From Amphirosellinia nigrospora (taxonomy: Eukaryota; Ascomycota; Sordariomycetes; Xylariales; Xylariaceae), in contig SCHM01000001.1 of the NCBI GenBank assembly GCA_004123355.1, positions 124,001 to 188,000 of the forward strand: 64,000 nt of DNA, in the 5' to 3' direction. Shown one piece after another: positions 21,932 to 51,489 of this stretch. A model generated the notes under the pieces. That model was not told the DNA's origin. It saw only the letters and a program-made list of their open reading frames with translations, and searched no databases. A program made the translations under genes and the position numbers. Numbering within the stretch: the stretch's first letter is position 1; every line of letters starts with the position of its first letter.

Positions 21932-23655
21932 GATTGCTCTTCACACTATTCACAATGGAGGCGAGAGTTCCCAAGCGCAGGGAGCGGTTCAAACCGGGCG
22001 GTTGGTGAGAACTTTGTCACCAAGCACATGAACGAACGAAACATTTGCATTGTGCGTCATTCTGGGGACCATTTCTTTTTGTTCTGGCCACTTTGAGAGC
22101 ACGATAGTATTCCCTTTTTAGGATGTGATGTCCAGAAGGTTCTAATACCTTCACAACCCACGTTCCGGATGGCAATAACTGACTCCGGCTGTTGTAGGGG
22201 GACATCCTTTCGGTCGGTAACGATGGCGTGATGCTACAAGTTAGTCTTCCACGACAGCCATGCTTCAAACTTAATCATCGGTTCCAGCTGAAGAACTTTG
22301 CGCCAAACACCTACAAGACGAGCCGAACCGGATGGTATTACCGCGTATTACGCGAAGGCACTGTGCAGGCAGGGGATGAAATCCGACTCATTGAGCGAAA
22401 ATGGCCTAGATGGACGATCGAGCGCGTCCAGGAGTACTTGCACCGCACCGATAATCCCGAGATGAACGAAGAACTGTCGCAAATCGCCGACATGGGGGAC
22501 GAGAGCCGAAAGGCATTTGAAACCCGCGTAGTAAAGTTCAAGGCTAGCAGAAGCGTGCAGCAGGCGGCGAAGATGAGGCGGCAGAGAAGTGGCGTGATTA
22601 TAAGATTACCGAGAAGAAAGCTCAAACCTCTCGAATCACATCATTCATCTTCGAAGCTCTAACACCCGACCCTGATGTCAAGTCTGATGATGTCAAGCTG
22701 TCGCATGTGCGTCTTAAGCTACCGTACGTTATTCTCGGAACCATTTCCTTCCTGTTTAGCAACTTCCCAAGCACAATATTTCTATTTGGGACATGATGGA
22801 TGCCTAGAAGCTTCGAAGCCCTCCCACTTCACACCCTTAATGGCAATAACTGACTCCGAGTGTTGTAGAAATGGACTGCTGCGTTCCTATTCTATCGTCT
22901 CCGGGAACGAAGCCCGCTTCGAGCTTGGAATTGCGCTGGATGAGTCAAGCCGCGGTGGCTCAGTTTACTTGCATCAGAACATGAAGGAGGCGATGTGATC
23001 CAGGTTGGTCGCATCACTTCAGATGTCAAACCTGCAGGCGCAGCTAGCAACCATGTCTTTATTGTCGGCGGTATTGGCATCACCGCTTTTCTGAGCATGA
23101 TGGAGACCTATCGCCAAATTAACTGGGAGACGACACTGCACTACGGTTTCGTAGTGCAGATGACATACCTTTCCAAGAGCGGCTTGATGGGCTAAAGGAC
23201 TCCGTGAAGCTTTACGACCGGAGTAAAGGTCAACGCATGGATATCGGGGCTATCTTCCGAAACCTGCCGTGGAATTCGCATGTTTATGTCTGCGGGCCTG
23301 GGGGCATGATCGACAAGGCGGCTCAAGAGGCGAAGGAGTGCGGCCTCGGGGAGGATGAAGTACACTTCGAAGCCTTTGCTGCTGATACCACCGGCGACCC
23401 GTTTGAAGTCGAGGTCGTTAACCGGGAAGGCAAGGTCTTGAAAGTAGCTAGCGAGGAGACGTTACTAGAGGTGTTAAGACGGCAATTTGACGATGTGCCG
23501 AGTAGTTGTGAAGTTGGTAATTGTGGCACTTGTAAATTACACTGAAGAGAGGAAATGTTCAACATAGGGGCACGGCACTGACGGAAGTAGACAAGATGGA
23601 GGCTATGTTGAGCTGTGTTAGTAGAGGTATAGGAAGAATCGCGATTGAGATATAG
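21932..23655 (+). CDS. MOSC / flavin reductase / 2Fe-2S ferredoxin fusion, frame-broken
   Basis: A predicted multidomain oxidoreductase that would pass electrons from NAD(P)H through flavin to a 2Fe-2S centre, with an N-terminal YiiM-like MOSC domain. Order: HYSQWRREFP, GENFVTKHMNERNICI, QVSLPRQPCFKLNHRF (MOSC), KWPRWTIERVQEYLHR (YiiM 3-alpha), SRITSFIFEA, RSYSIVSG (flavin-binding RxYS), VFIVGGIGITAF (nucleotide), CGPGGM, and SCEVGNCGTCK then LSCV (2Fe-2S cysteines). Two introns (22052-22197, 22724-22868) are related to each other and to introns in other genes. Single-base losses appear near 22563, 22990, 23150 and 23533; the last falls just after the Cys cluster, and the true tail ends GRIAIEI at 23655. 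The first about 80 residues are not found. Domain call is firm; intactness is doubtful. Confidence 0.85.
22052..22197 (+). repeat. Introner-like intron, copy A
   Basis: A 146 nt phase-0 intron between ATT and GGGGAC of the MOSC gene. It starts GTGCGTCATTCTGGGGACC and ends ATAACTGACTCCGGCTGTTGTAG (read in two parts: ATAACTGACTCC, GGCTGTTGTAG). The central part shows GAGCACGAT and CAGAAGGTTCT, matching copies B to F in order. It is in the sense orientation of its host. Confidence 0.85.
22724..22868 (+). repeat. Introner-like intron, copy B
   Basis: A 145 nt phase-2 intron (CC|A) in the same MOSC gene. It starts GTACGTTATTCTCGGAACC, contains TTTGGGACATGATGGATG and CCTAGAAGCTTCGAAGCC, and ends AACTGACTCCGAGTGTTGTA plus G. 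Its last 30 bases are almost the same as copy A. Confidence 0.9.
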
Positions 23656-23944
23656 GGGGTTCATCATTGCTAACTCATTCCAATCGGCGTACATACCCGC
23701 CTGCATCCTATTGAGTCCCTCAATGGTGTCTTCAGGGCCTCACCCAGGGCTGTGTTTGAGCCAAGACAGCGAAATCATTGGTCAAAATCCACATCCAAAT
23801 GGACCATTCTTGGTCCCCTTTGCCTCGTCGAAGCCAAGACATCGAAACGCTACTGCTTTATAGACACCGAGAGTAACTAATAGACCATCGGGTACCTTGC
23901 TTCCTTCGGATCTCAAGTTTCATATCTTATGCCACCACGGGCTC
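23656..23944. other. Convergent intergenic interval
   Basis: About 290 bp between the 3' ends of the MOSC fusion gene and the dehydrogenase gene. Both 3' UTRs and polyadenylation sites should lie here. No repeat or gene is seen. Confidence 0.5.
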
Positions 23945-25314
23945 TTAGTTATTGTGACTCACGGTCCTAGGTGTTTGTGAGTTGCTCGATCCTGGAGTGT
24001 CGCCATCTGTAGACATTGCGATTGCTCTAGTAGCTTCAACTGCAACACTCGGGCTCAGTTATTGCTATTTAGAGCCGATTTGTGGGGGGTTTTAAAAGCT
24101 TCTAGGCAGTCTCTCATGCCAAAAAGAAACCTGGTTACCCTAAAAGTTGCCAAAACAAGAAGAAAGTGGAAGAAAGTGGAAGAGAAAATGGTTCCAAGAA
24201 TTACTTACGGTCGCGCCGCACCTCGGTGATCCTTTGTTCCACTGACCTTATACAATCGGGTCCCAGAATCATACGAAGATAATCGTCGTGGCCTTCAATA
24301 ACTGCCTTCACAACCTCCCTCGCAGCTTTGTCTGGGTCCCCTTTAACTACGTCCGGCAACGGGATTGTCTTAACAGCCTGGGCTGCACCAACCCACTTCT
24401 CGACTGCGGTGCCCATGTAACCTTGGCTAAACCCTCTAGTGTTTTCATACGCAACAGGGCTTTTGAAATTTGTCGTCCAGGCAGTGCGGAATGCGCCTGG
24501 CTCGACGATCAAGACCTTGACTACAACACTCGGAGTTAGTTTTTGTTGCTTATAGCATGAATTGTGAGGGTTTCAGAAGCTTCGAGACATCATCACGTCC
24601 CAAAAGGAAACGTCGTGCTCCGAAAGGTGCTAAAGCAGGAAGAAAAGAACTCGGAGAGTTACGCACTCCCGAATTCTTCGACTTCCTTCTCAAGAGACAC
24701 ATAGATAGCTTCGATAGCGGCTTTGCTAGCTGCATATGCTCCCCGTCTGGGAGCGACATGTATCTGCTCTCACGAAATGTGACTCGCTAGTTAGCAAGCC
24801 TAGATATCACAACGAGATGTCAGCATACACTATACCACTGCTGATCAGGATGATGCTGCCACGACGCTTGGCGCGCATGGATGGTAGAATGGCCCTGATA
24901 GCGCGGAGAGGTCCCCAGAAGTTCACGTTCAACTGGTCTTGGACTTCGGCTTCACTGCTGGTGTATTAGCGAGAGCAATGATCTCGGCGAAAGCGGCCAC
25001 CGGCCTCGTATCCTCGACCCCACAATAAATGCGTAGCCAGCGTTATTCACGAGTACGTCGAAGTCGTATTCTTCCTGGGCTTTGGCGAAATCATGGGAAG
25101 AATTTGGATGGGCGGGATCCAACTGCAACCAGATGCCACCTTTGGCAGTGAAGTCGGGGCTCACTGCTTGGGCCTTGATAACGTCCCGTGTTGTGCCAAC
25201 GACCTTCCGGCCAGCGTCGAGAGCTGCGATGCTAATGGACTGGCCGATGCCAGAAGATGCGCCGGTAACCAACCAGGTGGAAACCTTGGAAACATTGGTT
25301 ATTTCTACTGCCAT
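23945..25314 (-). CDS. Short-chain dehydrogenase/reductase (classical SDR)
   Basis: NAD(P)-dependent oxidoreductase with a Rossmann fold. The start ATG at 25314 gives MAVEITNVSKV followed by the cofactor motif TGASSGIG (residues 17-24), then LVNNAGYAF, SEAEVQDQLNVNFWGPLRA, SIILISSG and the catalytic YAASK (24744-24730), then VLIVEPGAFRT. The C-terminus continues over a last intron to a stop at 23947-23945 (SHNN). Two introns, 24666-24521 and 24208-24040, belong to the introner-like family. Another intron lies between ISSG and YAASK (about 24860-24760). Frame around 25020-24950 (GYAF to VEDT to SEAE) does not join cleanly, so an unusual splice or small indels are possible. Substrate cannot be told. 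It converges on the MOSC fusion gene. Confidence 0.88.
24040..24208 (-). repeat. Introner-like intron, copy D
   Basis: A 169 nt phase-1 intron (C|TT) in the SDR gene. On the minus strand it starts GTAAGTAATTCTTGGAACC, contains TTGTTTTGGCAACTTTTAG, ACTGCCTAGAAGCTTTTAA and ends ATAACTGAGCCCGAGTGTTG plus CAG. It is longer than the others through a tandem doubling of a TTCCACTTTC unit near the 5' end. Confidence 0.88.
24521..24666 (-). repeat. Introner-like intron, copy C
   Basis: A 146 nt phase-1 intron (A|TC) in the SDR gene, just after the YAASK catalytic segment. On the minus strand it starts GTGCGTAACTCTCCGAG, contains GGAGCACGACGTTTCC, TTTTGGGACGTGATGATG and CGAAGCTTCTGAAACCC, and ends AACTAACTCCGAGTGTTGTA plus G. 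Same block order as the other copies. Confidence 0.9.
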
Positions 25315-26359
25315 TTTAGTCTCGGTGGCGACTTGCTGAGGTTGACCGAGTAAAGCACGGCCGGCCACAGTATGTGGACGGGGAGGTGGTTATAAATGGG
25401 GTCATGTTCGAGTAAAGCCGGGCATGGATATGGCTTTAGGCTGTCTGTATAGACAATATATAAGTACTTATATGCAACAGCGTAGGATTCAAGCATGCCA
25501 CCCGCACCACCAGCATCGAAGGCCGACAGAATCCACGCAACCATCCAAGTTTTGGCTAAAACATGATATATAACGTGGCCATACATCTTTCCCCCCTATT
25601 GAGTTCTAGTCTCACTAAGAGGGAGTGGAAGTTTGGCTGAAGCCTCGTCTCGTTGGCGCGGAAACATGTTCACGAACTTGCATTGCTATAAGTACCGGAA
25701 CTACCTTAATAGGTAGCTAGGGGTAGGTACAACTACCTAGTCGAATTGGGTAGTGCTTGTTGGGAACACAAGACCCCACTGTTCCGTCATCATCGACCTA
25801 TCTCCTATCTCTAGGTACTTAATTAGGTACTTAATTAGGTACCTTAGGGCACCTATTCACATTGAAGGCAACCTTTACACACGACGCTGGGAGTGCATGA
25901 CCTTACTAATAGGTATAGCTTTCTAGACGTGCACCTTTTCCAACACGGCACCGCGGTTTATTCGACGACATTTCTCGTGCCATCATCATGGCCGATAGAC
26001 AGGGGTCCTGATGTGCAAAGCCGATTCATCTGTTGAAGCGCCCATGCCGGCTGCTAGCAGATCCGCGCTGTTTTCACGAATCATGGCTGTAGGATACCGT
26101 GTAGGAGATGCTCACCGCCCTTCGAACCGCTAGCCAAGCAGGAAAGCCACATGAAATGTTGGGAGACTAGCCACATTCCAAGCCACGGACGAAATGATAC
26201 TAAGTACAGCGCCTACCTACCCCGATACCCGATAACACAGGACGTGAACCCCGTAGCCGCCCGGTTCGGTATATCTACTTTAGGTACTTAGATCACAACA
26301 CATCACCCACATGCAAACCCGTGAGGACTCAACCAGAGGAGGATTCCCCAACCCAAACC
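25315..26359. other. Divergent promoter interval with GGTACC-type repeats
   Basis: About 1 kb between the divergently transcribed SDR and ceramide synthase genes. It holds a cluster of TAGGTACTTAATTAGG-type repeats at 25812-25850 (two and a half 12 bp units) and related TACCTAG motifs at 25700-25745. These motifs recur upstream of other genes in the window. No gene is supported. Confidence 0.55.
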
Positions 26360-27890
26360 ATGGCCGGTCACATCGAGACGACGAGATATGGGCTGCTACA
26401 AAGCCCGACTCAGTGGCTGTTTGAACACCAAATTGGTACGTATGCAATGCGATGCTGTGCTGTGCTGTGCTGTGCTATGCTATACTGTGCTATGCTATGC
26501 TATGCTATGCTATGCTATGCTGGTCTTTCCCCAGCAGGACCACCGCTAAGAATTCACTAAAGGAGTCTCCTTCAATCTTGTTCTCGCGCTTTTCCTCCTT
26601 CACACATGTCTGCCTCTAGAGCCGTCGTGGACATCCAAGTTTTTTACTCTATCCGGCTACAATCCCGCCACCGGCAAGTATGCCATTGGCCACGATGACC
26701 TCTATTTCGTCGTCTTCTGCGTCGTGTTGTTCTGTGGCATTCGCGCTGGGTCTATGAAATATCTGCTCTCTCCGCTGGCTAGATGGTGTGGGCAGACCAA
26801 CAAGAAACGTATCACGAGGTTCTCCGAACAGGGCTGGATGCTCATGTACAATACGGTTTTCTGGTCCTTGGGAATGGTACCAACGCACCCCAATTCGACC
26901 CTGCATGGCCCTGCTAACCATCGTCTACGACAAGTATATCTATACTACATCGCCATATTTCCTGAAACTGCCTGAGCTATGGACAGACTGGCCCCAGAGA
27001 GAGCTCGATGGCCTTACGAAGGGGTATGTGTTGGCGCAACTCGCATACTGGACCCAGCAGTTGCTTGTCGTCAACCTGGAGGCCCGGCGACACGATTACT
27101 GGCAGATGATAGCTCACCATTTCGCTACTATCGCTTTGATATCTTCAGCTTATGCATACCACCATACGCGAGTGACCAATCTTATATTGGTTCTCATGGA
27201 TATCATCGAATTAATATTCCCTGTAAGATGTACGATCCACCACGGGAAATACTGCTGACCAAAAAAACCAAAAAAAAAGCTTGCGAAATGCTTAAAATAT
27301 TTAGGCTTCACCACCATTTGCGATATCATTTTCGGCATATTCTTAGTCACTTGGCTCGTTACGCGCCATGTATTCTACCTCATGGTGTGTTATAGCGTCT
27401 ATCGTGATTCACCTCGCCTCATGCCGACGTCATGCTACCAAGGCCTTGCCGACGATCTGCGGGGTCCATTGCCTGTTCCAGAGGGCTGGTCATATCTCCT
27501 GGCGCCTTTCCGCAGCCCCGCAGGTGTTGTCTGCATAAACGAGGGCATACGCATTGGGTTTTTGTCGTATCTCCTTATTCTACAAGCCATCATGATTCCA
27601 TGGTCTTGGGCTATCGTTCGAGTAGCTGTCCGGGTCGTGCGGAGGATGGTGCTGAGGACGTCAGAAGCGATGACGAAGACGAAGAGGATGAGCTTGATTA
27701 TGACGAGAAGGTCGGGTTCGAAAACGCGCAGATAGTCGAGGAGGTCGGAGCCGAAGTCATCGATTTCGATGCGTGGAAGCGCCGGCACGGTATCACGCAG
27801 AGGGCTAGATCAAGTGGTGCGAGTATTTCGAGGCATAGTGATCGGAAAGAGTTGCTGAATCGGATCGGATGTGAGAGACAAATTGAGTGA
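26360..27890 (+). CDS. lag1: Ceramide synthase, Lag1/TLC family
   Basis: Acyl-CoA-dependent N-acylation of sphingoid bases in the ER membrane. Start ATG at 26360 (MAGHIETTRYG). Intron 1 (26436-26562) is followed by FNLVLALFLLHTCLP, LSGYNPATGKYAIGHDD and YFVVFCVVLFCG. Intron 2 lies at about 26878-26933. The TLC/Lag motif is clear: RRHDYWQMIAHHFATIALI (HH pair), YAYHHTRVTNLILVLMD. Intron 3 is about 27224-27279, then LAKCLKYLGFTTICD. The acidic tail (EDVRSDDEDEEDELDY) and conserved end ELLNRIGCERQIE are present, but in a frame shifted by one base near 27640, where a short G/C run may have lost a base. The catalytic region is whole. The N-terminus is shorter than in many relatives. Confidence 0.9.
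26452..26522 (+). repeat. CTATG/CTGTG pentanucleotide repeat in lag1 intron 1
   Basis: About fourteen tandem 5-mers, first TGTGC-type, then TATGC-type, fill most of the first intron of the ceramide synthase gene. The two blocks differ by a single base per unit, suggesting spread of one variant by slippage. It is probably polymorphic in length. Confidence 0.9.
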
Positions 27891-30800: not shown

Positions 30801-31413
30801 GGCTGTGACGCGGTACCTGTTCCATACAGCGACATATCTCTTCACTTGGCACGGCGTTGGTCCACCTAATTGACATTATTATGTGGCGATTTGTAACCTC
30901 GATATCGTGTTCTTATCGCTAAGAACACTATCCTGCGTCTCAGGCACGAAAAAACCCCCTATACTAGGTTCCTATCTCTGTGCCTCGTTGTTAGGCCCAG
31001 GAAAAGAGATTGCCTGTCCTGAATCGAGCCAGTATCCAGACGAAGCGTCGGCTTGTTTGCACAAGAAGACCAGAATGGGTGGGCAGCAAAGTATGTGGCG
31101 TGCTATCTATCGTGCTGGCATTGTGAAGTCTGGCGAGTGATATCAGGAGGGCGATTTGTGCATCAACTCAGGCTACGCAATGCCATTCTTGGCTACACAT
31201 TACCGGGAGCCGTAACACAGTACCTGTCACATAGCATCATACGGTTCAGGCGGACTGTCCGTTCGCTTTAAGGTTCAAGCCCACAGACCCAGCATATTTA
31301 GGAGACTCATATCTCTCCCATCTACAGCAAGTCACCGAACCATCCAATTCAATTCTTTTTAACAACTAGCCATAAGGCCGTCGTCCGAATCTATAAGCAC
31401 CGTAACAGACCCA
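27891..31413. other. 3.5 kb gene-poor interval
   Basis: No protein family is recognised. Open stretches (for example 109 codons on the minus strand at 28686-28357, rich in Glu and Arg) have no known motif and weak splice context. A TATAAAAG sequence is present at about 29021. At 30795-30835 and 31205-31240 two loosely similar segments around GTACCTGT...CATA occur, too diverged to call a repeat. The last 200 bp should include the promoter and leader of the TDT transporter. Confidence 0.45.
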
Positions 31414-33123
31414 ATGACCGTTCCATCTCTTTTTGCCAACAAGCTACCCGACCATCTACCTTTCCCAATGGACAATAACTCCACAGCCAACAGGAAACCT
31501 GATAGCCTCCTCCAAGACGCCCCCACGGCTGTGAACTCTAGACGCCAGAGTTTTGATATGGAAAAGGACGGTTCTCATCATGGCATCAACATTTATGATC
31601 CGAATAGACCCAAACTAGGCTTCCGCCAACGTATGCACCATTTCACCTGGGCATGGTTTACCTGGCCGATGAGTACAGGTGGATTGTCACTTTGTAAGCC
31701 GCCTTGCTCTGGCCGGTCGTCATTTTTTCGGTTATTGATGCCATTCGACGACGTGATCGACCCCCGTCGTCGACTCCTAGATGAAAAACTAACATTGCTT
31801 CCTTCAGTGATACACTCTCAGCCCTATCAATTCCCTGGGCTGCGACATATCGGTTTCGTTGTATACGTCACAAACCTCGTCATATTCACAATACTCGTCG
31901 CCTGTATGATTACCAGATTTTGCTTACACCGAGATGATTTGCGGTGTGTACAAAACCCTCCCGCTCCCGATACCCTAGCGTCCTCGTTTTGTATGATCTA
32001 GCAAGCCCCGCGGCGTGTGACTGAGTGATCTCGACTAACGTGTTTCTATCCCCGCAGCAATTCTGTTACGCATGGCCGTGAAGGGTTTTTTCTTCCCACG
32101 TTATTTCTAGCCCTTGCTACTATTATTACTGGTACAGAACGCTATGTTATGCCGGAAAACGATGTGCCTCTCCGCTGGCTGATTCTGAGTGCATTCTGGC
32201 TGTACCTGCTCGTCACTCTCGCCCTAGCCGTCGGACACTACAGCCACTTATTCGCGAAACATAGATTTGCCCTAAACCTCATGATGCCAGTTTGGGTATT
32301 GCCTATATTTCCTATTATGTTATCTGGGACCATCGCTTCGGTGATTGCTGAGTCTCAGCCGGATATTGCTGCGATACCAATTCTTGTCGGTGGTTTAGCT
32401 GCCCAGGGGTTAGGAATATCAGTAGCATTTTTGATGTACGCGCACATGATAGGAAGGCTGATGCAAGCGGGTAAGTTGGCTTGTAGGTCATTGGTCGCTG
32501 TTCTGATCGACTACTAATTCTTATCAGAGCTTCCGGATAGAGAACACCGACCCGGTCTCTTCATAAATGTAGGACCTCCGGCATTCACAGCACTTGCCTT
32601 CATCGGCATGGCGAACGGCCTACCCAACTCCTTCGACCGTGAGCAGGACGGTATCCTTGACGCGAATGTAATCCGAACATTTGCCCTCATTGCTGCCATT
32701 TTCCTCTGGGGTCTATCATTCTGGTGGTTCTTGATTGCCGCTGTCGCTGTGATAAGCTCGCGACCAAAGTACTTCGTGAGTAATCCTCGGTTTATTTGGT
32801 AACCTCTAGAGCACAAAATTTTGGTTTCTCGGTCAAAGAACTGTCTGGAAGCTTCTGAGACCCAAATCGCATTCAAAGCAGCTAAAACTGACCCGAGGCA
32901 GCACCTGGGCTGGTGGGCCATGGTTTTCCCCAATACTGGCTTCATCTTAGCAACTATCTCCATCGCTAAGGAGTTTCGAAATTCCCACGTCTTGAGATTC
33001 GCCTCGGCACTTTCGATATTGCTCGTGCTCATGTATATATTCGTGCTCGTTTCTCACGTTAGGGCTGTTGTGAAACAGGATATCATGTACCCCGGCCGCG
33101 ACGAAGACGTGGAAGATCATTGA
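31414..33123 (+). CDS. TDT-family (Mae1-like) dicarboxylate/malate transporter
   Basis: A plasma-membrane transporter of the tellurite-resistance/dicarboxylate (voltage-dependent anion channel fold) family, which moves malate and other C4 acids or sulfite in fungi. Five exons join in frame across introns at about 31694-31807, 31949-32058, 32472-32527 and 32778-32902, each with GT, a branch motif and AG. The family N-terminal motif HHFTWAWFTWPMSTGGLSL follows a hydrophilic 70-residue tail. Ten hydrophobic segments can be traced, including FVVYVTNLVIFTILVAC, WLILSAFWLYLLVTLALAV, FPIMLSGTIASVIAE and HLGWWAMVFPNTGFILAT. It ends at 33123 (DEDVEDH). No frame breaks were found. Substrate (malate versus sulfite) cannot be decided by eye; Mae1-like is favoured. 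Confidence 0.9.
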
Positions 33124-33948
33124 ATTCGAAAAGTTTTTATGGGAAGGTTGGGTTGCTATGGACCTAGTCGGCCCCCTTTTAAATTGTACACATCGTTTCA
33201 TTTCTTTTCTTCACGTTGGTTTTCAGTGGTACATGTGATGTTCACGTATTGCCTCTGCTGGAAAGGCTTATATTTAGATTCGTATACCGTTTTAGATAGA
33301 CCCAAACTACGTGCTAATAGCAGACGTAAGTTATAATTCATAGACAGCACTAACCTCGATTTATGGAAAATAATAATAATAATAAATAATTAAGATAACA
33401 GTTTTCTATTAGTACTAACTATGTTTTCGTTCAAATAACATGTGTCAATATACAGGAGGGCACAGTTAAATATATCTATACGACTATATGATGCCTTAGC
33501 GACTTCGTTACTTGCGCCATACAATGCCGAGCTTTTCTACGTATTTAACTGCGATTTCACGAGCATTAACGGCAACGGTTCCGTTATCATTTCATCTCGG
33601 ACTGGGATAATGCCATTCTTGCTAGGCTTGCGAATGAGGTGTCCCTCGAATGGCGAGCTACCAAGGATATCTGATCTGTTCGGAATTCTGGCGAATGGCC
33701 GATCAGTCATAGGTATCAGAATATTGGAGATAACCATGAAGCTTGGTTGCAATGGCCGAATTCAAAAGCGCACTCGCATTACTACTATGGCATCATTGGG
33801 GGTTGTAATGAGCCATCTGCGGGGTTCAGCAACAACCTTTTGGAACGCTGCCGGAGCTCGAGAAAGGCATAAAGAGCCTTTATAGACGAGTTTGAGATTT
33901 TAACAAGCCTTGAAAGTTTGCAATACATTTGTCCATTACCACCTCATC
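33124..33948. other. Interval between transporter and dioxygenase
   Basis: About 825 bp. AT-rich with ATA trinucleotide repeats at 33366-33392. An open stretch on the minus strand (33752-33537, 72 codons) and another on the plus strand (33442-33885) overlap each other; neither has a motif I recognise. The last 100 bp are the likely leader of the dioxygenase gene. Confidence 0.4.
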
Positions 33949-35308: not shown

Positions 35309-35629
35309 CTCTTGTCTCCTAGGTATTCGGGAGTCTCTTCGTTTTTAGTAAATAGTGAGTGAAATTCCACCTTTTCGATATATACACAGTGTATAAACGA
35401 CCCCTTTAACAAAAATCTTTCCGACCGGCTAGCTATTCGAGAGGATTACCCATAAAGATGATTTGTATTATACAATTATCACCGTATCACTACAACGTAG
35501 TGTCACCTTAGTTGATGAATGCACTTAACTTTCTTAACTATAGAGCTCTCTCTCCGTGGCACTATTTCTTCATAATATAGGTAAACATAGATCTTTGTAC
35601 TTGGTGTACTAAGACGCAACAAAAAGGTG
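35309..35629. other. 3' flank of dioxygenase
   Basis: About 320 bp between the dioxygenase stop and the tRNA gene. AT-rich, with probable 3' UTR sequence; no other feature is seen. Confidence 0.4.
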
Positions 35630-35731
35630 GGCTCAGCCGGGATTCGAACCCGGGGCCTCCTGCATTCCCATGTACACAAAGATGGAAGGGCGCAACCCGA
35701 AGCAGGAATCATACCACTAGACCACTGAGCC
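35630..35731 (-). tRNA. tRNA-Pro (anticodon CGG) with 31 nt intron
   Basis: On the minus strand GGCTCAG at 35731-35725 pairs with CTGAGCC at 35637-35631 to form the acceptor stem. The A box (TGGTCTAGTGGTATGATT) and B box (GGTTCGAATCCCG) are canonical. The anticodon stem CCTGC (35706-35702) pairs with GCAGG (35663-35659); the loop reads TT-CGG-G, so the anticodon is CGG. An intron of 31 nt (35695-35665) sits one base after the anticodon, the usual place. Mature length is 71 nt, normal for fungal tRNA-Pro. Confidence 0.95.
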
Positions 35732-35884
35732 GATTATCGGAACTTAGATAAACATAAATCGCTGTAAGTTGCATTAATACACAATTTTGATCGAGGTTAA
35801 GCCGCCTGTACCGTATTTTGGACACTTGGAGGCCGGATATAGCTCTAGAGACCGTCTCTCGAAGCCCAAGTAGTGTTTTGATGT

Positions 35885-40321: not shown

Positions 40322-41467
40322 AGGATTGATCGAGGGCACTGACGCGAGGATACCATTATTGGGTGAATAGTTCTGCCGCCGGACTCTTCGGGGCCGCCAC
40401 GAAGAACAAAATGGGAGATTTGGGCTCACAGCACCTGGCGTTAAGGAGTAAGGGGGATTATACCATCGGTCTCACCGGTTTTGTTTGTCATATGACCAGT
40501 ACCAGTTCGATTCAGTGCGGCAGAAAGAGCATACGATACTCGGCTGACGCGGGGACGAGGGACTGCTAGTAAGAAGTATCAGATAAGCCATGGGCGTCTA
40601 GAACTCGTTGGATGAGAGTCGGAGTTGGTGATGTAGTCTGATAGCACTTCTAGGTAGTGAATGACGATAGAAGTAATATCAAGTCAAAGTGTCACCTGTA
40701 CGAACCCGGTGTGATGGTGTTAACCGTAAGCTCTAATCCCTATCCTACCCACCACCGGTTCCAGCCTAACCAAAACCATACCCTACGAGTCGAACACTAC
40801 GAGCAGCATCTAGCCAAACGTGACAGAAGTAGAGAAGGCGATTAGATATGGCGTTCCTGCTTCCATAACCGAGCTCGGCCGAAAGGCAAACACTGCTTAC
40901 GCAGATCCTCTGGGGCCAATGCCACCTCAGATAACCGGATCAACAAATAATATACGGACTTGACGGAGGTGAGGTCGGGTCAGAAGTCGGGTGAATGGGG
41001 TTCGGCGACAACAAACCTCGGCCAAGAACTTCGGAGCGCCACTGGCCCAGGATTTTGGACGAACCGGGGGGTCCTGTCGGATTCTGGGGATTAAGCGGAG
41101 CACCCATACTCGATATGTATAAGACAACAACACCAACAACGACAACGACAACAACGATCAACCCTCCCCCTGGAGCTCATCGTGTTCGAAATCGTAGCCC
41201 TGAGCTGGCCCTAACATACATCTCAAGTCAAACTGTGATTGTGCCAAAAAAAACCGTAAAAAAAAGTTACGCCTACTCCGTTCTCGAGAGGGAAAACAGG
41301 CAGTAAGCAGGCTTCTTCCTCCATCTGATCGGTAACACAGACCACCCTCTTCGTGTCTCTCCTCATTTCGCCCATACTCGATTAGAATTAGTTTATCTGA
41401 TCCCTTCTTCTATTGTCCTCATTAGAGCTATCTATACCTACCTCCTCATATCCCGATTCGGCCAAAA
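40322..41467. other. Intergenic interval with CAA-rich tract
   Basis: About 1.1 kb between ICE2 and the CoA ligase gene. A CAA/CGACAA microsatellite lies at 41125-41160. No protein family is recognised. The part after about 41300, with CT-rich sequence, is the probable leader of the next gene. Confidence 0.45.
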
Positions 41468-41870
41468 ATGACCAATTGCCTACAAGACGAAGTGCACTCG
41501 CACTCGGTCACGGACCCAGATGCTTTCTGGTCATCGCAGAGCTCTCTTCTACACTGGCACACGCCGCCGACATCAACCTTGACAAAAACGACGAAAAGGT
41601 TAAAGAACGGGATTGAGCACCCGCACTGGCGCTGGTTCGACGGTGGCGAGATATCGACGTGCTTCAACTGCGTCGATCGTCACGTCTTGGCGGGGAGCGG
41701 TGATGAGCCCGCCATTTATTGGGATAGTCCCGTCACCGGCGCGAAGCAGACACTCACATACGCGCAGCTCTTGGATGAGGTCGAGACTACGGCCGGTGCG
41801 TTAAGGGAAGAGAGCGTGCAGAGGGGCGATGTGGTGTTGGTCTACAGTACGTGTGATATACATACTCTTT

Positions 41871-41883
41871 CCCCCCCCCCCCC
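41871..41883 (+). repeat. 13-nt poly-C run in CoA ligase intron 1
   Basis: Thirteen C in a row inside the first intron (41847-41926). The flanking exon codons GTC TAC A and TG CCC ATG ATC join in frame across it. Confidence 0.9.
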
Positions 41884-42983
41884 GCTCATCACGATCCAAG
41901 CCCAAGCCAACTGACACTGGACCAAGTGCCCATGATCCCGGCGGCGCTCATCGGAATTCTAGCCGTCAACCGCCTAGGCGCAGTGCACGCCGTGGTATTC
42001 GGCGGCTTCGCGCCTGCGTCGCTGGCCCAGCGCATCCATGCGTCGCGCCCTGTCGCCATCCTCACCGCCTCATGCGGCATCGATGGGAACAAGCCACCGA
42101 TAGGATACAAGCCCTTCATACACGAAGCTATCCGGCTGTCGAGCCACAAACCAAGCCGCGTCATTGTCTGGCAGCGCGACGAGTTGAGATGGGATGTCAT
42201 CGACAAGCCGGCGGCGAGCGAAACTGGTTCAAGATGGTGCGCAGCTGCCGGCGAGGAACGTCAAGGCGGCGTGTGTCCCCGTGGGCGCAAACGAGGCATA
42301 TATATCATTTACACCAGGTAAGATAGAAGGAAGGAAGAAAGGGAGGGAGGGAGGGGGTCCCAGGACGTCCGGCGCGAGACATGGCAGCATGGCTGATTCA
42401 TTACACTCCTCAGTGGCACAACAGGTTCACCGAAAGGCGTGGTGCGCCCCGCCGGTGGCCATGCCGTCGGACTGCAGCTTTCCATACGCTACTTGTTTGG
42501 GATCCGCGGGCCGGGGGACGTCATCTTCACAGCCAGGTAAACAAGACACAGAAAAGTCCTTCCCATGAAAACGTTCCGGCTCGCAATTTCTGAACTGAAG
42601 ATAGCGATATTGGCTGGGTTGTCGACATTCATACATTCTCTACGCGCCGCTTCTCGCTGGCGCCGCGACGGTCCTCTTCGAGGGCAAGCCCGTCGGAACG
42701 CCGGATAGCTCTGCTTTCTGGCGGATTGTGCAGGAGTACAAGGTGAACACACTATTTACAGCGCCCAGTAAGCAGAATCATCAATGAAAAGTGGGACTTC
42801 TACGACAAAAAGCTAATCATGATGACGATGAAAAAAGCTGCTTTGAGAGCAATCAAGCGGGACGATGCGGGACAACCGACATCTCAAACAAATAGGGGAG
42901 CAAGGCGGCTGAGAAGCCTGAGGGCGTATTTTTAGCAGGCGAACGGTCCGAGCCTTCGATCGTCACCATGTATCAGCATCTCA

Positions 42984-43099
42984 GTAAGCCATTGGTCGGA
43001 GCATCGGCTTTCTTCTTTTGGGACAAGAGAATGCCTAGAAGCTCCTACGGCCTTCACAAATCAACTCTACATAGCGATCACTGACTTCGAGTGTTGTAG
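42984..43099 (+). repeat. Introner-like intron, copy E (short form)
   Basis: A 116 nt phase-1 intron (A|TA) in the CoA ligase gene. It starts GTAAGCCATTGGTCGGAGC, contains TTTTGGGACAAGAGAATG and CCTAGAAGCTCC, and ends CACTGACTTCGAGTGTTGTA plus G. It lacks about 30 nt of the central-left block present in the other copies, so it is a deletion form. Confidence 0.9.
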
Positions 43100-44253
43100 T
43101 AGAAAAATATGGGGCACCCGGCTTAGTCGTCGATAACTGGTGGTCGTCCGAGTCGGGGTCGCCTATTTCAGGCATCAGCCTAATGCCACAGTAAGTCTGC
43201 GTTTTGGGATTCGTTCGTTCTCCCGTCATCGACATGTCTTCACTCTCGCATATTCACGAGACCGTGAACTTGCTTACCCCAAAATGGCTCACGTCCTTGC
43301 CGTAAGCAGTCAATTTTAACATGTCCGTTTTCATAGAGCTGGCCAAAGCAGGACATCTCCCAAAGACATGGCAGGTTGCCACAGATCAAACCCGGGAGCG
43401 CTGGGAAGGCCATGCCGGGTTCGACGTTCGATGTGTAGGCGACGACGGCGTCGAATTGAAGCGTGGCAAGATGGGGAATATTGTTCTAGGTGTGCCTCTG
43501 GCTCCGACTGGATTCACGACGTTGTGGAATGATGAAGAGAGGTTTTACCAGACTATCTAAAGCGGTTTGACGGGAAGTGGATCGACACGGGCGGTAAGCA
43601 TCGCAAATTTAGATGCCGTGTATCATCATCATGAACCTGACTGTCAATATGTAGATGCTGGCATGATCGATTCAGAGGCCTACATTAGTATCATGAGCCG
43701 AAGCGATGACTTGATCAATACGGCAGGCCACCGACTGTCGACGGGTACGTCCATCTCAAGCAGGTATACCTCGTATCTTCGTGCATTGAACTTACGAGAC
43801 GCACAGGATCCATCGAACAGGCTATCACGACCCATCCATCGATAGCTGAGGCGAGCGTAGTCGGGATTCCGGATTCGCTGAAGGGGCAGCTCCCATTCGC
43901 CTTCATCACTCTCTTGGTCCCAGATCATCCGACGTCGGCGATACCTGACGCGCAACTCTTCGGCGAGATACAGCAGCGGGTGCGGACGCAGATCGGCGGC
44001 ATAGCAACCCTGGGCGGGATGATCCAGGGTAAGGGGATGATTCCAAAAACGCGGTCGGTCGGGAAAGACGCTACGTAGGGTGCTGAGGGAGCTCGTCGAG
44101 AACGCCGTGCATGAGGAATACGATAAGGAAGTCGAGTATCCAGCGACGATCGAGGACCCGTCCGTCATCAAGGTGGCGAGGGACAAGGTTGCGGAATACT
44201 TCCAGCACAGAGGGAGCGCGCATAAGGCCATCGAGGCCAGAGCGAAGTTGTAA

Positions 44254-45847
44254 GCTTGAAACCGTGTTGCTCCAAGTTCCAAGGGGGGAGGGGGAGGGGG
44301 CCGCTCTTCTTCCCCATAGGTTGATAATAACGTGCCTCGGGTTTCGAGAAGGCACATCGACCGGACAATAGCCACTCTCCTTCAGCCCGTCAGGCGTCAG
44401 AATATTCGAGTTTCGTGATAGGTTAGATTTAGAGGTGAGCGCGAGGTGAGCACAAGACGTAGGGCTCGGGCTTGGGCTCGGCACTCGTTGAATCTTATGC
44501 CTTATGCTGGAAACGGACCAGTAGCATAGCCTCAGCATTCGTGTACCCCGAGCAAGTCATTACACAAGAGATGCTGGCGTTACACATCTGCTTCCTGGAA
44601 CTTTAGGTAAACAAAGGCCGGGTGACTTACTAGTAAGTTTCGTAGAAGGAATACATCTAAGCCGACTCCCAGCTCCACCGTATCCTCTCACCGCCGCGCC
44701 GCCGCCGCCGCCTTGAAGTCATCCCAACACGCACCTCGAGCTCCAATTAGACGACAGCAACACAGGCCTACCCGTCTCACATTACCACAAACTCGGTGAA
44801 AAATGGCATGGCGTGGCGTCCGGCCACGCGGCCCCAACGAGCCATCGCTGACCAACGTCTGTGACATATTTCAGCCTCGCGTAGCCTACCTCGGCCGTTT
44901 GGAACCAGTCATAGAACCCCCGATATCATGAAACATCATGTTTACCCTACCGCAGACACGGTACAGCGAACCTCGACGAATGCGCGCGGCACGGCGTCCC
45001 GGCTGCATTCAGCCCTATGCCACGTTCACATTACACATTACATCTTATTGTGATCCATCCCTACGTACCCCGATCAGGTGATATCACCCTCACCTAGGCG
45101 GCCGGTTTCCGCCGAGATTTTGACATTACGTCGTTGACCACAACTCGGCAGCCGCCATTCGTGAAACTTATTATTAGCAATGGCAGTGTTGTCCAGGAAC
45201 AAGTTTCCTAACTGCAACTGCTATTTAAAGCCTTTTTGTTATGATTAGCCGGTCCTGGCACTCGGAGGCAGGTGTGAATACCTGGAGTGTCGCGTATCCA
45301 TGTTAGTAAAGGCGAATACGCCGAAATTAAATACTTGCCGCCGTAGAGAAATGCTTGAACCACCCGTAACAGTTTCCAATTCGTTCGTGTCTTAGCGAAA
45401 ACCCAGAACCGTGCCGCAAGAGTATTCAAGTAATCGAGCTTACACAAGAGTTGATACCTTCAACTGGCAAGCAACGTTTTGCTTCTCATGTAGCATTGTA
45501 ACACCAACAAGAGACTTATGATCCAACGGCCATGGTCTCGTGATGTATGTGGACCTAACGATCCTTCTTTCGAGGAAGGAGTGGAGTTAGGTCTTTATTC
45601 CCAGAGTCATCATGAGTTTGTGGCTTTTATTTGTCGACAATGAAGGTCATCGTCTCACTAAGGCAAGGCTTTCTATGATAGTTACGAAATCAACGAAACC
45701 GAGATTCGGTGCGGAGGTGAGACAAGCTCTGGAATATAAAATAGCTTTATGGCTCACACCATTAGCAATGTTCTCTGGATGGTAACTCATCAACTTGAAA
45801 ATTATCTTAACCTTATAAATAGAAACTCTAAGTCTTCGGCTAAAAAC
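44254..45847. other. Intergenic interval
   Basis: About 1.6 kb with a G-rich patch at 44280-44301 (GGGGGGAGGGGGAGGGGG) just after the CoA ligase stop and a CCG triplet run at 44694-44712. No gene is recognised. The end, with AAAAACATGGCC, is the leader of the ATP-grasp gene. Confidence 0.45.
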
Positions 45848-47994
45848 ATGGCCGATATACGCTCACCAAAACTATTCGTGGTAACGGGTAAGTGATAATA
45901 AGCTCCTAACTCAGTTTAATATTTATACATCAAAATCTGACTGACAATCTAAGATGGCGCTCGAGAAATCGATTTTGAGTGTAATTGGGCAAAATCCCAC
46001 CCTGCCATCATTCAATCTAGAGGGAGCACGCCCACACAGACAATCGACGTTTTCATTTCAGCAACTTCAGCGAGACCAGATATTTCCCCTCGACCAAATT
46101 CTGACGCCAATAAAGCGCATAAGGTGCAAGTTCAGCCAGGAGTTTTCGATTTCTTTGATAACTGTCTCCGTGTCGTAACTGTAACCCCGGGTCCTGGGGT
46201 TGCAACCGTTAGATTCGTGATCCCCAAGAAAGTGGCACAATCATCAGCTCCAATATCGTCTCTTCTCGTTTACGCGACGCATTTTGGGTGGAGGAAGCGA
46301 TTTCATTCGCTTCCCCGTCCAAGTCTTCACCTGCTCTCTTCTTAGACCTGACGGCGTCTCGCTCACTGATATTATTCGCGCCTCCGCCGGAGCAGTCTTA
46401 GTGAAACCAAGCACAACCCAACACCATCTAAGAGACAGCAACTTCCATCTTCCCCTGGAGGTGGAATCGGATTTTGAGAGGAAACTTTCCATCTCTTGGA
46501 TTTCAGCAAAGCCTATAACTCGCAAGCGCCTCGTTCTCGTCGGTAGCAGCAATCAGGACCCGGAAGGGGGTGTTGGACACAGTTCGCACGACACGCGGCG
46601 TAGCACTGGGCATTGACCTCGTTATTATTGACCGAGAAGACGGATGGTTGGCGAAAGGGAATTACTCATCGTGGTACGAGGCGCTTCTGCCAGCTCCTTC
46701 GTCTTGGTGGGCGGACCCGTCGGCGGACGAGCTCGTGAAGCTCGTGGAAGGTTATCAGGCCAAAAACAGGGGGTCGAAAATCGACGGCATCGCAACGTTC
46801 ATCGAAGCCTTGCAAGTCCCTGTCAGTGTTGCCGCTTCGCGACTCGACCTCCCACACGAAATACTTCGGCTTTTGAAAAGGCCACAAACAAGTATAAACT
46901 CGGGCTATTCCAGAACAGACCCGCGTTCCTCGCTCCAACACCACGGACGTGCTATCGCTTATCAGATCACCCCATAACCGGCTCACATTCCCACTGATTG
47001 TCAAGCCATGCTTCGGGCTCAACTCTGAAGGCGTCACACGCGTAAACGAAGAATCCGAGCTTCGGGAGGCCATAGAGGCAGCAAGGATGTCTGGGAGGAG
47101 TAAGAGTAATGTTGGAGACAAAGTGTTGGTGGAGAGGTATTGCGATGGTCCTGAAGTCGATGTCAACATGGTCTTTGTTGATGGAGAGATCGTGTTCAGC
47201 GAGGTCTGTGATGACTTTCCGAAGGGCGCTGATGTGAATAACGTCGGCAGGAATACTGACGATAGAATTGCGACTAAAAAGCTCACTCCAGATCAGCGCA
47301 GAAACTTCCAGGAGACCAATATGGTTTTCCCCTCCGCGCTACCTGATGATGAGCTCACAGCTTTGAAAAGTACCGTCGGAGGCACCTTGAAGGGTCTTGG
47401 GTTCAAAAATGGCGTCATGCATGTTGAGGCCCGTGTGGATCAGTCAAAGTGCAGCTACCAGTCTGTGAATGGTATTACAGACTTGCGACCTCGACAGCGG
47501 ATCACCTCAACTACTAAAGGAAACGATGCATCAGCCACAGCCATGCCCACCCTTGGATCATAGAAGTAAACCACGCCCACCGGATTATTTGCTTCTCAGA
47601 CTCCACTATCCGTATATGGGATCGACTACTGGGGAATCTCGCTGCTTCTAGGCGTAGGCGACAAGGCACGAGCAGTATCTTTATCGCAGCCCTTTTCAAA
47701 TGGGGCACAGAGCCACACAGTCCTTGTCATGATCCGCGCCGAATTTGACCCAGCTTGCGAGGGCATATTCGACTCTGACGATGTCTGCGCCGAATTATTG
47801 ACGCGCCGCCCGGAACTCAGAAAGCACCTCGGACGCTACGGTTGCTTGTTGAAGAGAGGTCAAAAAATCCCACATCGAAAGATGGCAAGAACACTTTCGT
47901 GGCGTATATAAATGTGTTTTCGAAGACATCGAGAAAGGAGGCACTGGATATTGCGAAGGAGGTGAGAGAAGAAGTGAGGTACAATATTCAATGA
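45848..47994 (+). pseudogene. ATP-grasp domain enzyme, frame-broken
   Basis: A fungal ATP-grasp ligase of the carnosine-synthase/biotin-carboxylase-like fold; substrate unknown. First exon MADIRSPKLFVVTG (ATG at 45848) and an intron at about 45891-45953. The N-terminal part includes VFDFFDNCLRVVTV and DGVSLTDIIRASAGAVLVKP. A pre-ATP-grasp segment reads KRLVLVG, TRGVALGIDLVIIDREDGWL and KIDGIATFIEA. The ATP-grasp core is FPLIVKPCFGLNSEGV, VLVERYCDGPEVDVNMVFVD, FSEVCDDFP and WIIEVN (metal site). The tail GIDYWGISLLLGVGDKARAV to REEVRYNIQ ends at 47994. These blocks lie in different frames, with changes near 46265, 46570, 46865, 46950, 47440-47500 and 47600. Not all can be introns, so the gene looks broken or the calls contain errors. 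Confidence 0.75.
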
Positions 47995-48463
47995 AGAATT
48001 TCGAGAGGCGACCTTTTTTGAGGTTTGGGTATATTGGATTCGGGAAGATATAGCGTCGTAGACATGGGGTGTTGGCTGCATTTTTGGGTTTCTAATAGAC
48101 CGGCATGACAATAGAGGCGTTTGTAGAGATGGTACTATAGATTTTATTTGTATAAAGGTGTATGGCAATAACAATTCGACATTTGGTATCTTTTAGCCAT
48201 ATGTAAGCTGTCTTAACATTCCAAGTATACTACGTTAATATGGGGCTTGCATTCCCGTTTCTTTCGCATCTCTTGAACCCTGTAACGGAGCCCTATGTTG
48301 TGTCACTTCGTGGTGGCGAAGAAGCTATTACGGGCTTGAGGCATCTCTAGAAGCGGTATGGCTCGAGCCATAATAGAGTAGAATAACAGTCGTGTTGTGT
48401 CGAGACGTAAGTCGCACAAATGAACAACAACACCTTTGCAAAGTTTGTCTGCGGTTCACAAAA
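47995..48463. other. Convergent intergenic interval
   Basis: About 470 bp between the convergent 3' ends of the ATP-grasp and MFS genes; AT-rich 3' UTR-like sequence with no other feature. Confidence 0.4.
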
Positions 48464-50766
48464 TCATAGCGCATAAACAAACTCAGGGTTTTCACGGTCT
48501 GTGAGGTCCATGAATTCCTGGCCTTCGATCTTACTGTAACCAATGGCCGCCCTAACAGAAGCTTTGACGATGTTCTGACGTTTGCACCAGAAATAGATGA
48601 ATAACATGACCACATATGCCAAAATCGTTGCTACCAAGACAATCGTAATAGCAGTATGGTACGCAGGTGCGTCACCCGGCCGAAAGACTTGAGGGCCGAT
48701 AATCTACTATTCATCAGTGTTCCGCTAGCTGACGCTGCAATACACCGATTCGAAAAGAAAAAAGAGAAAGGTAATACAGAGTGATAATAAGCATAGATGG
48801 CGTCTGCCAAAAAGTGAATGTACGACTCGTGGATCGCATAAGAAAATTTGCAGCCTACGTTACCGACACAGTACGCCACGAGATACATCGCTGCAGCGGT
48901 ACTAGAGTCGTGTTAGTCGATATCGCCAAGCTTCACATCATATAACTTGCTAGGTCAGATGAAACAAAAGGTAAGGGATCAGGTACGGGAGGTTATACGC
49001 ACGTCTTCTTTGTCCAGCCCGCGATATTGGAGGATATGAGACTCAGCACGCACACGAAGCCGGTTGATAAAGATGAGTATAGGTAATATCCTGCGAGTCG
49101 TCCTCCTCTATTTCGGAAGGAGAAAACGGATCAAGAATAAACCTAAAATTGCGATAAGAGGGCCAAACGAGTTGATTAACTGTCTCTTTGTTAATGTGCT
49201 AAACTGTACTGCGATAGGAGAACCAAAACGCACAATACGATTATTAAATCGACGCCCAAGATATCCGAAGCCGATCAACGTCACGACCTGAACAGCACCG
49301 GCGGTATACCAAGAAGTAATGACTGAGTAGGGGTGAACCCAAATGCAACAATCAATTGTGAGAAATAGTTTGATATGCCACCTATCAAACCATTTTTATT
49401 AGCGGTTGCTAGATGTAACACAAAAAGTACCTACCATTTGGAATGTTTGAGACCAAGGAAAGAGGACGAAAGCCCAGATCATTGGATCGGTGAGGGCCTC
49501 CTTGGCCTGATACCACTTGAAATGTTTATTTCCTACGCCTTGTTGGTTTACGCGTATTCTCTCGACGGCCATCAGGCGCTCATGCTCTGTCAGGAATCGC
49601 GCATTAAGTTGGCTATCAGGCATCCAATACAAAAAGAGGATACCCAGTAGAGCCGTGAATAAGCCGAAAACAAGGAAAATCAATTGCCATCCTTAATTAA
49701 AAGAGGGTGTTTCTCCGTCCCTATGGCAATGCCATACGCAACAACACCGCCCAATATTTGGCCCATCCGTTGAAGCTGAACCACCAGGATACTCGAGTGC
49801 CCTGCTCAGGTGTAGTATACCATTGTGAAGTGAAAAGAACGAAACCGGGGCTGACCGCAGCTTCAGCAGCACCGAGGAAGAATCGTACAGCGAGGGCACC
49901 CCTGAGGTCCTAAGTCAACCCGTTAGCCTGTCTGTCGTCGTACAATACAATACCTGCGCTACCTTTACAGCAGCCGTGAGAGCAAGGATCGATCCCACAA
50001 TATTACGTTGAGAGCAGAGTATTTAGCTAAGGGTAGTCGTTGAAGAAGCCAATTAGTCGGCCATTCCCATACGAGATAACCGAAATAGAAGATCGATGCA
50101 CTGCAACACTCGGGGTCAGTTATCGCCGATTGGAGCTGGCCATTGAGGGTTTGAGAGGCTTCTAAACATTCTCTTGTCCCAAATAGAGCCTCGTGCTCTG
50201 GAAGTTACCAAAACAAGACGAAACCGGCCCCGAGAATGCTTACACCCAATTATACTCGGATACTAGAGGTCACGAACTTGTCAGAATGCTTTAATCTTTG
50301 TAACTCCTGTCATGATAAACGACATACCTCCTATATTAAGATCTGTCTATGTTGCAATGGCGTCAGCCCGTGATGCTCGTTTCAGTATGTAAGGACTCAC
50401 TTTAAATCCTACTATAGACGCGTAGGATAATGTCGTCTTATCCAAGTAGTTCAACCCATACACAATGCATAAAAGAGGCATTATGGACAAGTCAATCTTC
50501 TTCAACAGCTTCGACTGCTCGTCGGCGCTGAGTAAAATTGTCTCCCCCGACTGTCAGCAATCAGCGGCATGTCATTGCTACGACAAGTAAATCGACAGGC
50601 TACAATGCATACTGGGCAGCCACGAGTTTCAAGGCCTCATCTAGGCCGTTATCGATTATATCCTTCGGCGGGCGTTGCACCTCAGAAGCATGAGGTTTAT
50701 AGCTCGTCTCTATCGCCTTTTCGGCCGAGGCATCTCCTGACGGCCTCGGTCTTGATCTGCCGACAT
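48464..50766 (-). CDS. MFS anion:cation symporter (Dal5/allantoate permease-like)
   Basis: Plasma-membrane permease of the ACS family, which imports organic anions such as allantoate, nicotinate or biotin. Start near 50766 (MSADQDRG). Blocks in order: SADEQSKLLKKIDLSIMPLL, YGLNYLDKTTLSYASIVGF, EYNWVASIFYFGYLVWEWPT, NWLLQRLPLAKYSALNVI, FFLGAAEAAVSPGFVLFTSQ, WYTTPEQGTR, FLVFGLFTALLGILFLYWMP, LTEHERLMAVERIRVNQQGV, LTDPMIWAFVLFPW, and a last helix AITIVLVATILAYVVMLF ending NPEFVYAL (stop at 48464). One intron, 50243-50101, is introner-like. Several junctions (around 50560, 49960, 49100, 48620) do not join cleanly, so some one-base errors or breaks are likely. Twelve membrane segments are expected; substrate is unknown. 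Confidence 0.82.
50101..50243 (-). repeat. Introner-like intron, copy F
   Basis: A 143 nt phase-2 intron (GT|T) in the MFS gene, splitting the conserved EYNWV/ASIFYFGYL segment. On the minus strand it starts GTAAGCATTCTCGGGGCC, contains TTGTTTTGGTAACTTCC, AGAGCACGAG, TTTGGGACAAGAGAATG, TAGAAGCCTCTCAAACCC and ends ATAACTGACCCCGAGTGTTG plus CAG. Confidence 0.9.
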
Positions 50767-51489
50767 TTAATCATGCACTCCGAAATCAATAAGAAGGTGG
50801 TCGGTATGCGCAAGAACCATGGGGTATGATGGCGGACTATCTGGTATATATGTATTCGGAAGGTTATCTGACATGACGGTCAAGGTCCCCTGTCCGGGTA
50901 AATCATTGCTACCTTACTCCGCACGCGTGCACAGTGCACAGTCTACAGTATGAAGCACTCAAACAACCGGATATCTCGAATCACCGGCATTACAGTTCGG
51001 CGCAAATGGACATCAACCTTTTTTTACGACGCGAAGAACGAGGAAGTGGAACAATGGTTGAATGCCAATGACGTTTAATGATCCTTTGCGGTCGGTGTAC
51101 AGCACCCAAGGCTTGGGCAATTGATCATGATGTCGAACTAACCCGCTAGTTTAGGAGGTGCAGGCGCCTACCTAGGTAGGTTAGGTATCTCTTAGTGCAT
51201 CTGGTTTAGGGATCAGATAAGATAGGAAAAAGGTAGTTCCTCACAGCCAATCAAACAACATGCATGCTCGCCAACCTGATGACCCACTGCCAGCTCTAAA
51301 TTAGTGCGCACCAAAAATTATTTTTCGCAGCAGCAGCGCAGGTCCACTCGTAGTATCGTGGGTGTCTAGTCATTTAATCAATCAATCAATCAATCAATCA
51401 ACCACATTGCGCACTACCAGTCACCAGCCGCTCACCCTGCCTCTACGACCAGTCCATCTCACTCCAAACCGACAAAAACAAGTGCGAAA
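50767..51489. other. Divergent promoter of MFS and eS28 genes
   Basis: About 720 bp. A CTACCTAGGTAGGTTAGGTA motif lies at 51169-51189. A tetranucleotide AATC/ATCA repeat (six units) at 51377-51401 falls in the likely 5' UTR of the ribosomal gene. The region before the start is pyrimidine- and CAG-rich, common for ribosomal protein genes. Confidence 0.6.

Follow-up and report, generated by a model that had tools for sequence, protein, structure and literature searches.

In the xylariaceous ascomycete Amphirosellinia nigrospora, a 64,000-nt stretch of contig SCHM01000001.1 (GenBank assembly GCA_004123355.1, forward-strand positions 124,001 to 188,000; this whole stretch is the window, and coordinates count from its first base) carries seven related introns. 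Very probably, one mobile spliceosomal intron gave rise to them all, making them a family of introner-like elements (ILEs) in a filamentous ascomycete. The copies are densely placed, with all seven found within 28 kb, and we read their hosts as five unrelated genes, whose extents are approximate and whose identities come from the domain matches given with each:

21960-23650, plus strand: MOSC/reductase gene (Pfam MOSC and Fer2, reading frames)
24000-25389, minus strand: short-chain dehydrogenase/reductase (SDR) gene (Pfam adh_short, PDB 3m1a)
31363-33130, plus strand: SLAC1 / voltage-dependent anion channel family transporter gene (Pfam SLAC1)
41426-44100, plus strand: acetyl-CoA-synthetase-like AMP-binding enzyme gene (ACAS_N and AMP-binding, with both AMP-binding matches below Pfam's cut-off)
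48328-50530, minus strand: MFS transporter gene (MFS_1, with both matches below Pfam's cut-off)

The MOSC domain and the reductase with its 2Fe-2S domain are read as parts of one MOSC/ferredoxin-reductase fusion gene. By eye, the frame of this gene is broken outside the introns, between its two parts, and the MFS gene likewise has reading-frame breaks outside its introns; the breaks in both genes could be due to assembly indels or to decay. The MFS gene also has two successive apparent micro-exons of 19 nt, at 50328-50346 and 50244-50262, the second of which sits between an ordinary intron and the family copy in that gene. The seven copies, named here after their hosts, are the following:

22052-22197, plus strand: MOSC1, 146 nt, phase 0, in the MOSC/2Fe-2S reductase fusion gene
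22724-22868, plus strand: MOSC2, 145 nt, phase 2, in the reductase part of the MOSC fusion gene
24521-24666, minus strand: SDRa, 146 nt, phase 1, in the short-chain dehydrogenase gene
24040-24208, minus strand: SDRb, 169 nt, phase 1, in the host gene of SDRa, near the C terminus
32776-32901, plus strand: SLAC1 copy, 126 nt, phase 0, in the SLAC1-type transporter gene
42984-43099, plus strand: CoA, 116 nt, phase 1, in the acetyl-CoA-synthetase-like gene
50101-50243, minus strand: MFS, 143 nt, phase 2, in the MFS transporter gene

The initial annotation of this DNA had reported six of these introns, in four genes. All six are real, with coordinates, GT and AG bounds and host sense strand correctly given, and they do align over their full length, from donor to acceptor; the count was low, as the SLAC1 copy is a seventh and adds a fifth gene. 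The relationship is readily detected by leave-one-out hidden Markov models (HMMs), each built from five of the six copies: the held-out copy was recovered from the 64 kb window in 6/6 cases, with E-values from 2e-15 (CoA) to 4e-29 (MFS). For the CoA copy, whose 5′ part is different, the match did not start until 42998. All six models also found the seventh copy, with E-values from 1.9e-11 to 5.8e-9. Beyond the seven, the best E-value in the window for an HMM built from all seven copies was 0.16, and this model had no match at E ≤ 1 among 41 control sequences derived from bases 12001-64000 of the window (one reversed, and 40 in which units of 3 nt were shuffled inside blocks of 300 bases). On the reverse strand, nhmmer matched 22833-22778 (E 0.17), which is no more than a hint that one copy is self-complementary.

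The six introns had also been described as sharing a common series of sequence blocks. The introns are indeed related, but not all blocks are found in every copy, and most of the shared blocks carry substitutions. In the CoA copy, about 30 nt are absent from the 5′ half, and with them the near-donor and TTGTTTTGG blocks. The SLAC1 copy has deletions of about 12 nt in the 5′ half, 4 nt in mid-intron and 5 nt before the acceptor, while SDRb has a longer 5′ half that carries a 10-nt tandem duplication. Short GT-AG introns are also present in the window, and these resemble the family as little as was first claimed: none of the 11 ordinary introns that we inferred from open reading frames, a set that is not exhaustive, matches the HMM. 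Their lengths are 49-82 nt, compared to 116-169 nt for the family, and a blastn comparison among the first eight of them showed no similarity at E 0.01.

Every copy begins with GT and ends with AG (7/7). The branch-point motif is CTRAC in six of the seven copies and CTGAG in SDRb. In six copies, 11 nt separate the branch-point element from the acceptor trinucleotide; the SLAC1 copy has 6 nt there. Phases 0, 1 and 2 are all used, as had been stated initially. All seven copies are presumably spliced. Four of the predicted junctions are spanned by good protein matches, two by modest ones and one by a weak one. The SDRa junction aligns to PDB 3m1a with no gap nearby, as does the SDRb junction to the C terminus of the same protein, and the spliced MOSC1 peptide falls within the Pfam MOSC match (E 7.6e-24). 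Removal of the SLAC1 copy, in which the acceptor was placed at 32901 by the reading frame and the HMM matches begin at 32776-32778, links ...SSRPKYF to HLGWWAMVFPNTGF..., and the spliced host protein matches SLAC1 PF03595 through the junction (E 1.3e-40). The modest cases are the CoA junction, which aligns to 5gxd (E 0.001), and the MFS junction, which is crossed by an MFS_1 PF07690 match (E 3.9e-6) that is under Pfam's curated cut-off. The MOSC2 junction aligns weakly to 2pia (E 0.25), with a PNG-R-YS motif restored. The MOSC2 and CoA junction peptides, of which the CoA peptide is short, had no Pfam match.

The copies are found exclusively inside genes and on the sense strand (7/7), and the HMM search found no intergenic or antisense copy in the window. 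With a genic share of about 43-52% in bases 12001-64000, the probability that 7/7 copies would be genic is 0.003-0.010, a value obtained from rough gene spans that were drawn with the copy positions already known. Sense orientation alone is weakly informative because selection would purge antisense copies from coding sequence. The bases on either side of the introns are T/G, C/A, A/T, C/T, A/T, T/T and C/C, with no AG/G site among them. Exact adjacent repeats of at least 3 nt were looked for by comparing the two exon flanks of each site with each other and each flank with the intron end across from it, and none was found at any of the seven sites (0/7); a mutation-blurred target-site duplication (TSD) would escape this test. 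The proposal of the initial annotation that these are introner-like elements is supported by homologous introns in multiple copies, in unrelated genes, in sense orientation, in three phases, with GT-AG ends and with no adjacent TSD.

Fungal ILEs are reportedly known from the Dothideomycetes Fulvia fulva, Dothistroma septosporum and Zymoseptoria tritici, in work said to be that of van der Burgt in 2012. Similar to the Dothideomycetes ILEs as described in Collemare 2015 (PMC4457414; this and the other papers cited are represented here by parts of their texts), the copies in the window are canonical spliceosomal introns that are related to one another, reside in unrelated genes on the sense strand, sometimes occur twice in one gene, and decay toward ordinary introns. 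On the features tested, the family behaves like the fungal ILEs and belongs with them, an assignment made by published descriptions rather than by ILE sequences. Two further defining features of fungal ILEs are multiplicity, with as many as hundreds of near-identical copies across a genome, and recent gain, seen as absence from orthologs.

Pairwise identity among the copies in the window is 65-78%, and identity of each copy to the majority consensus is 80-89%. Identities for the pairs within one gene are 0.74 (MOSC1-MOSC2) and 0.73 (SDRa-SDRb), compared to 0.65-0.78 for pairs from different genes, and neither same-gene pair was joined in a FastTree tree. The terminal branches of this tree add up to 1.84 and the internal ones to 0.14, and one internal split has support of 0.914. 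A near-star tree of this kind fits a burst after which the copies decayed independently, or one persistent source, and the copies here suggest an old burst and then decay. According to the available portion of Collemare 2015 (PMC4457414), ongoing multiplication is marked by copies that are 98-99% identical, while much lower identity, as in D. septosporum, indicates that the ability to multiply has been lost; the copies examined here differ from such active families and are closer to D. septosporum as described there. The initial suggestion that this family is active or recently active is not supported, because identity is just 65-78% and the tree consists mostly of terminal branches. Within this window, the family seems decayed rather than young, and it is possible that younger copies exist elsewhere in the genome. 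We considered decay by repeat-induced point mutation (RIP) and found no support for it: in columns with a clear majority, transitions from the majority consensus affect 72/516 cells at A/T sites and 33/337 cells at G/C sites, and are thus somewhat commoner at A/T sites, the reverse of the RIP signature, with no RIP-like excess of C to T and G to A changes.

The regions near the two ends of the intron may pair with each other. A donor-side segment, ATTCTCGGA, is complementary to TCCGAGTGT, which lies between the branch point and the acceptor. The duplex energy of these arms is below that of shuffled arms (p < 0.05) in four of the seven copies, compared to 0/8 ordinary introns. Moreover, each copy's own arms (bases 5-30 and the last 35-4 in the main test) form a more stable duplex than arms swapped among copies, with means of -13.7 versus -11.5 kcal/mol (permutation p 0.008, 5040 permutations), and when one copy was left out, p was 0.010-0.015 for five of the seven. 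These results suggest a stem that would link the donor and acceptor regions, which we treat as a lead.

Based on these observations, we propose that a source intron would have been spliced out of one transcript and that its sequence, complete from GT to AG, would have been inserted sense-wise into the coding sequence of other genes, from whose transcripts the spliceosome would remove it again. We infer a likely RNA-based route, in which the excised intron may have been reverse-spliced, or the intron RNA or its cDNA may have been captured at a break, in transcribed genes. The data do not discriminate between reverse splicing and end-joining capture of intron RNA or cDNA. The donor-acceptor fold of ATTCTCGGA with TCCGAGTGT may have shielded the excised RNA or presented it, and the present copies would stem from an old burst and have decayed independently since. 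RNA copying is the best-supported reading because the copies are whole introns with GT-AG ends, lie on the sense strand, are restricted to genes, and have no TSD that can be seen.

Several observations weigh against this proposal. First, the nearest copy to MOSC1 is MOSC2, in the same gene (0.74, versus 0.65-0.72 to the others), though local duplication within a gene, which we considered as a source of copies, is not supported by the pairwise identities. Second, the fold energies of individual copies, expressed as z-scores, are -0.21 for MOSC1, -0.17 for MOSC2, -1.92 for SDRa, +0.50 for SDRb, -0.62 for CoA, -3.31 for MFS and +0.36 for SLAC1, such that the MFS copy has the strongest fold and five of the seven copies lie between -0.62 and +0.50. 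Third, the consensus, whose fold the initial annotation had put forward as a check, folds no better than shuffled sequences (z -0.54, p 0.27), and the RNAalifold structure is weak, at -0.96 kcal/mol with 15 pairs, of which 3 are changed on both sides in some sequence. Fourth, pairing of the ends in full folds (first 30 nt versus last 35 nt) exceeds that of shuffled sequences (p < 0.05) in two of the seven copies, with p 0.12 for the consensus. Finally, the arm test gives p 0.02, 0.06 and 0.10 with three other arm lengths, and weakens to p 0.053-0.056 without the SLAC1 or the MFS copy. Taken together, the z-scores of the copies and of the consensus and the RNAalifold energy do not show a generally stable fold. 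In this respect the copies differ from fungal ILEs, which are reported to have stable secondary structure in the review PMC3443670, as far as its available text goes; the copies here have no consistently stable fold.

A bolder version of the proposal, which we regard as rather improbable, is that these introns form an ILE lineage unrelated to the published ones, in which the near-terminal stem has been kept by paired changes while the remainder drifted. If this is true, the folded intron RNA itself would be the unit of spread, and a mobile spliceosomal intron would have to conserve structure and not sequence.

A DNA route, by way of a transposon that leaves no TSD, is a possible alternative to RNA copying. 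Its most explicit form is a spliceable DNA transposon resembling a miniature inverted-repeat transposable element, which would insert anywhere and of which only the sense copies within genes would survive or be seen; we consider this origin unlikely. Many introners of algae and other eukaryotes, which resemble the present family in repeated intron gain from one sequence family, are DNA-transposon-like with TSDs and/or terminal inverted repeats (TIRs), and 78.5% of the scorable non-ascomycete introner families in the accessible text of Gozashti 2022 (PMC9860276) have TSDs and/or TIRs. In keeping with such an origin, some copies in the window show near-terminal complementarity. However, this complementarity is imperfect, the alignment of each copy to its own complement reaches p below 0.05 in only 2/7 copies, and no clear TIR was found. 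An exact adjacent TSD was seen at 0/7 sites even if the intron ends are allowed to be part of it, although one blurred by mutation would be missed, and no copy outside genes or in antisense was found in the window. Moreover, the ascomycete introner families are described in the same source as having neither TIRs nor TSDs.

A second alternative, which we judge very unlikely, is that the copies belong to the [D1,2] stwintrons, or that they are what remains, in canonical form, of the sister stwintron family of Hypoxylaceae and Xylariaceae. This reading overlaps with the preferred one, as a remnant would also be an ILE, and the likelihoods that we assign are therefore not strictly exclusive. The copies share several features with the sister stwintrons and cropped introns as described in parts of Fekete 2021 (PMC8469720) and Fekete 2025 (PMC12403724): insertion is seamless, the flanks are not duplicated, there is no phase bias, and near-terminal complementary arms are present, the 5′ arm just past the donor and the 3′ arm between the branch point and the acceptor, a layout close to that described for NTIRE-10, the near-terminal stem of stwintrons in Xylariales (Fekete 2025, PMC12403724). 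Furthermore, Hypoxylon has canonical 'cropped' introns that derive from stwintrons (Fekete 2021, PMC8469720). Nevertheless, the [D1,2] type needs a preceding G, and the bases before the seven copies are T, C, A, C, A, T and C; none of the seven is a [D1,2] stwintron because the required G is absent in 7/7. The arms also differ in sequence, with no evident relation to the Xylaria NTIRE-10 sequences as printed (GUAUAAAAAC / GUUUUUAUGU), and in spacer length, which is 11 nt except for 6 nt in the SLAC1 copy, compared to mostly 14 or 19 nt in the part of Fekete 2025 (PMC12403724) concerned with it. Most copies, unlike the sister stwintrons as described, show no clear terminal inverted repeat of 45-55 nt by self-complement alignment. 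A likeness between an inner palindrome of the consensus, TAGAAGCTTCTA, and a Hypoxylon palindrome, TTTCTAGAAA, was dropped from consideration, as what they share is a short core that differs from copy to copy.

It is slightly less likely again that the introns owe their similarity to a structured RNA that they carry, such as a family of small nucleolar RNAs (snoRNAs), and are not copies of a mobile intron. By eye, SDRa, MOSC1 and MOSC2 have a C-box-like TGATG, and the CTGA of the branch point resembles a D box, motifs that we take to be those of snoRNAs. The C-box-like motif is not found in SDRb, CoA, MFS or the SLAC1 copy, however, and in bases 12000-64000 a tRNA (35629-35731) is the only Rfam hit at gathering cut-offs. 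A carried RNA is expected to share only its core, while the similarity here extends from donor to acceptor and includes the splice signals. With similarity that reaches both splice sites and no Rfam match to the introns at these cut-offs, a structured RNA as passenger is unlikely. That these are old introns alike by convergence or chance is extremely unlikely: fungal introns generally share donor, branch point and acceptor in part, but this reading is contradicted by the leave-one-out E-values given above, with ordinary introns and controls unmatched.

A literature search made by text and not by sequence, with supplements excluded, found no description tied to these introns. The family appears to be a new one among the fungal ILEs, judged against the known ones by descriptions and not by sequence. 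The origin of new spliceosomal introns is still open, and the best material for its study comes from families whose homologous copies are caught in unrelated genes. If the genome confirms the family, it would add one more to the short list of fungal ILEs, and its decayed state would allow one to ask what was kept, the splice signals or the terminal stem.

Scans of other sequence collections yielded no relatives: an exact 21-base pattern from the 3′ end had no match in viral contigs, and an exact two-block pattern had none in contigs of prokaryote genomes. These results say little, because exact matches were needed and the collections were not meant for fungi. With a looser pattern, one viral contig (L001) had a 17-nt match to the model at E 0.2, which reads as unrelated sequence and was set aside as chance.

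GC content of the window in 2 kb bins is 8-14% over bases 1-12000 and about 44-56% elsewhere. The extremely AT-rich block (1-12050) contains direct and inverted repeats of up to about 200 nt, terminates near a run of 20 C (12061-12080), and resembles the AT isochores that RIP produces. Pfam domains in the window include HET, glutamine synthetase, TLC, SLAC1, TauD, Fungal_trans_2 and ICE2, and an RPS28 gene is probable from reading by eye; together with the short GT-AG introns, this content points to a filamentous ascomycete. The glutamine synthetase gene (17411-18760, minus strand) has an in-frame stop around 18262, within a conserved region, which indicates either a pseudogene or a sequence error. 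The tRNA at 35629-35731, on the minus strand, was found by Rfam and missed by ARAGORN in bacterial mode; it probably bears an intron, because it is 103 nt long. Finally, short palindromic strings such as ACCTAGGTACCT recur, by eye, at 19250-19290, 51165-51190, 56465-56510 and 59240-59430, in surrounding DNA that is apparently intergenic.

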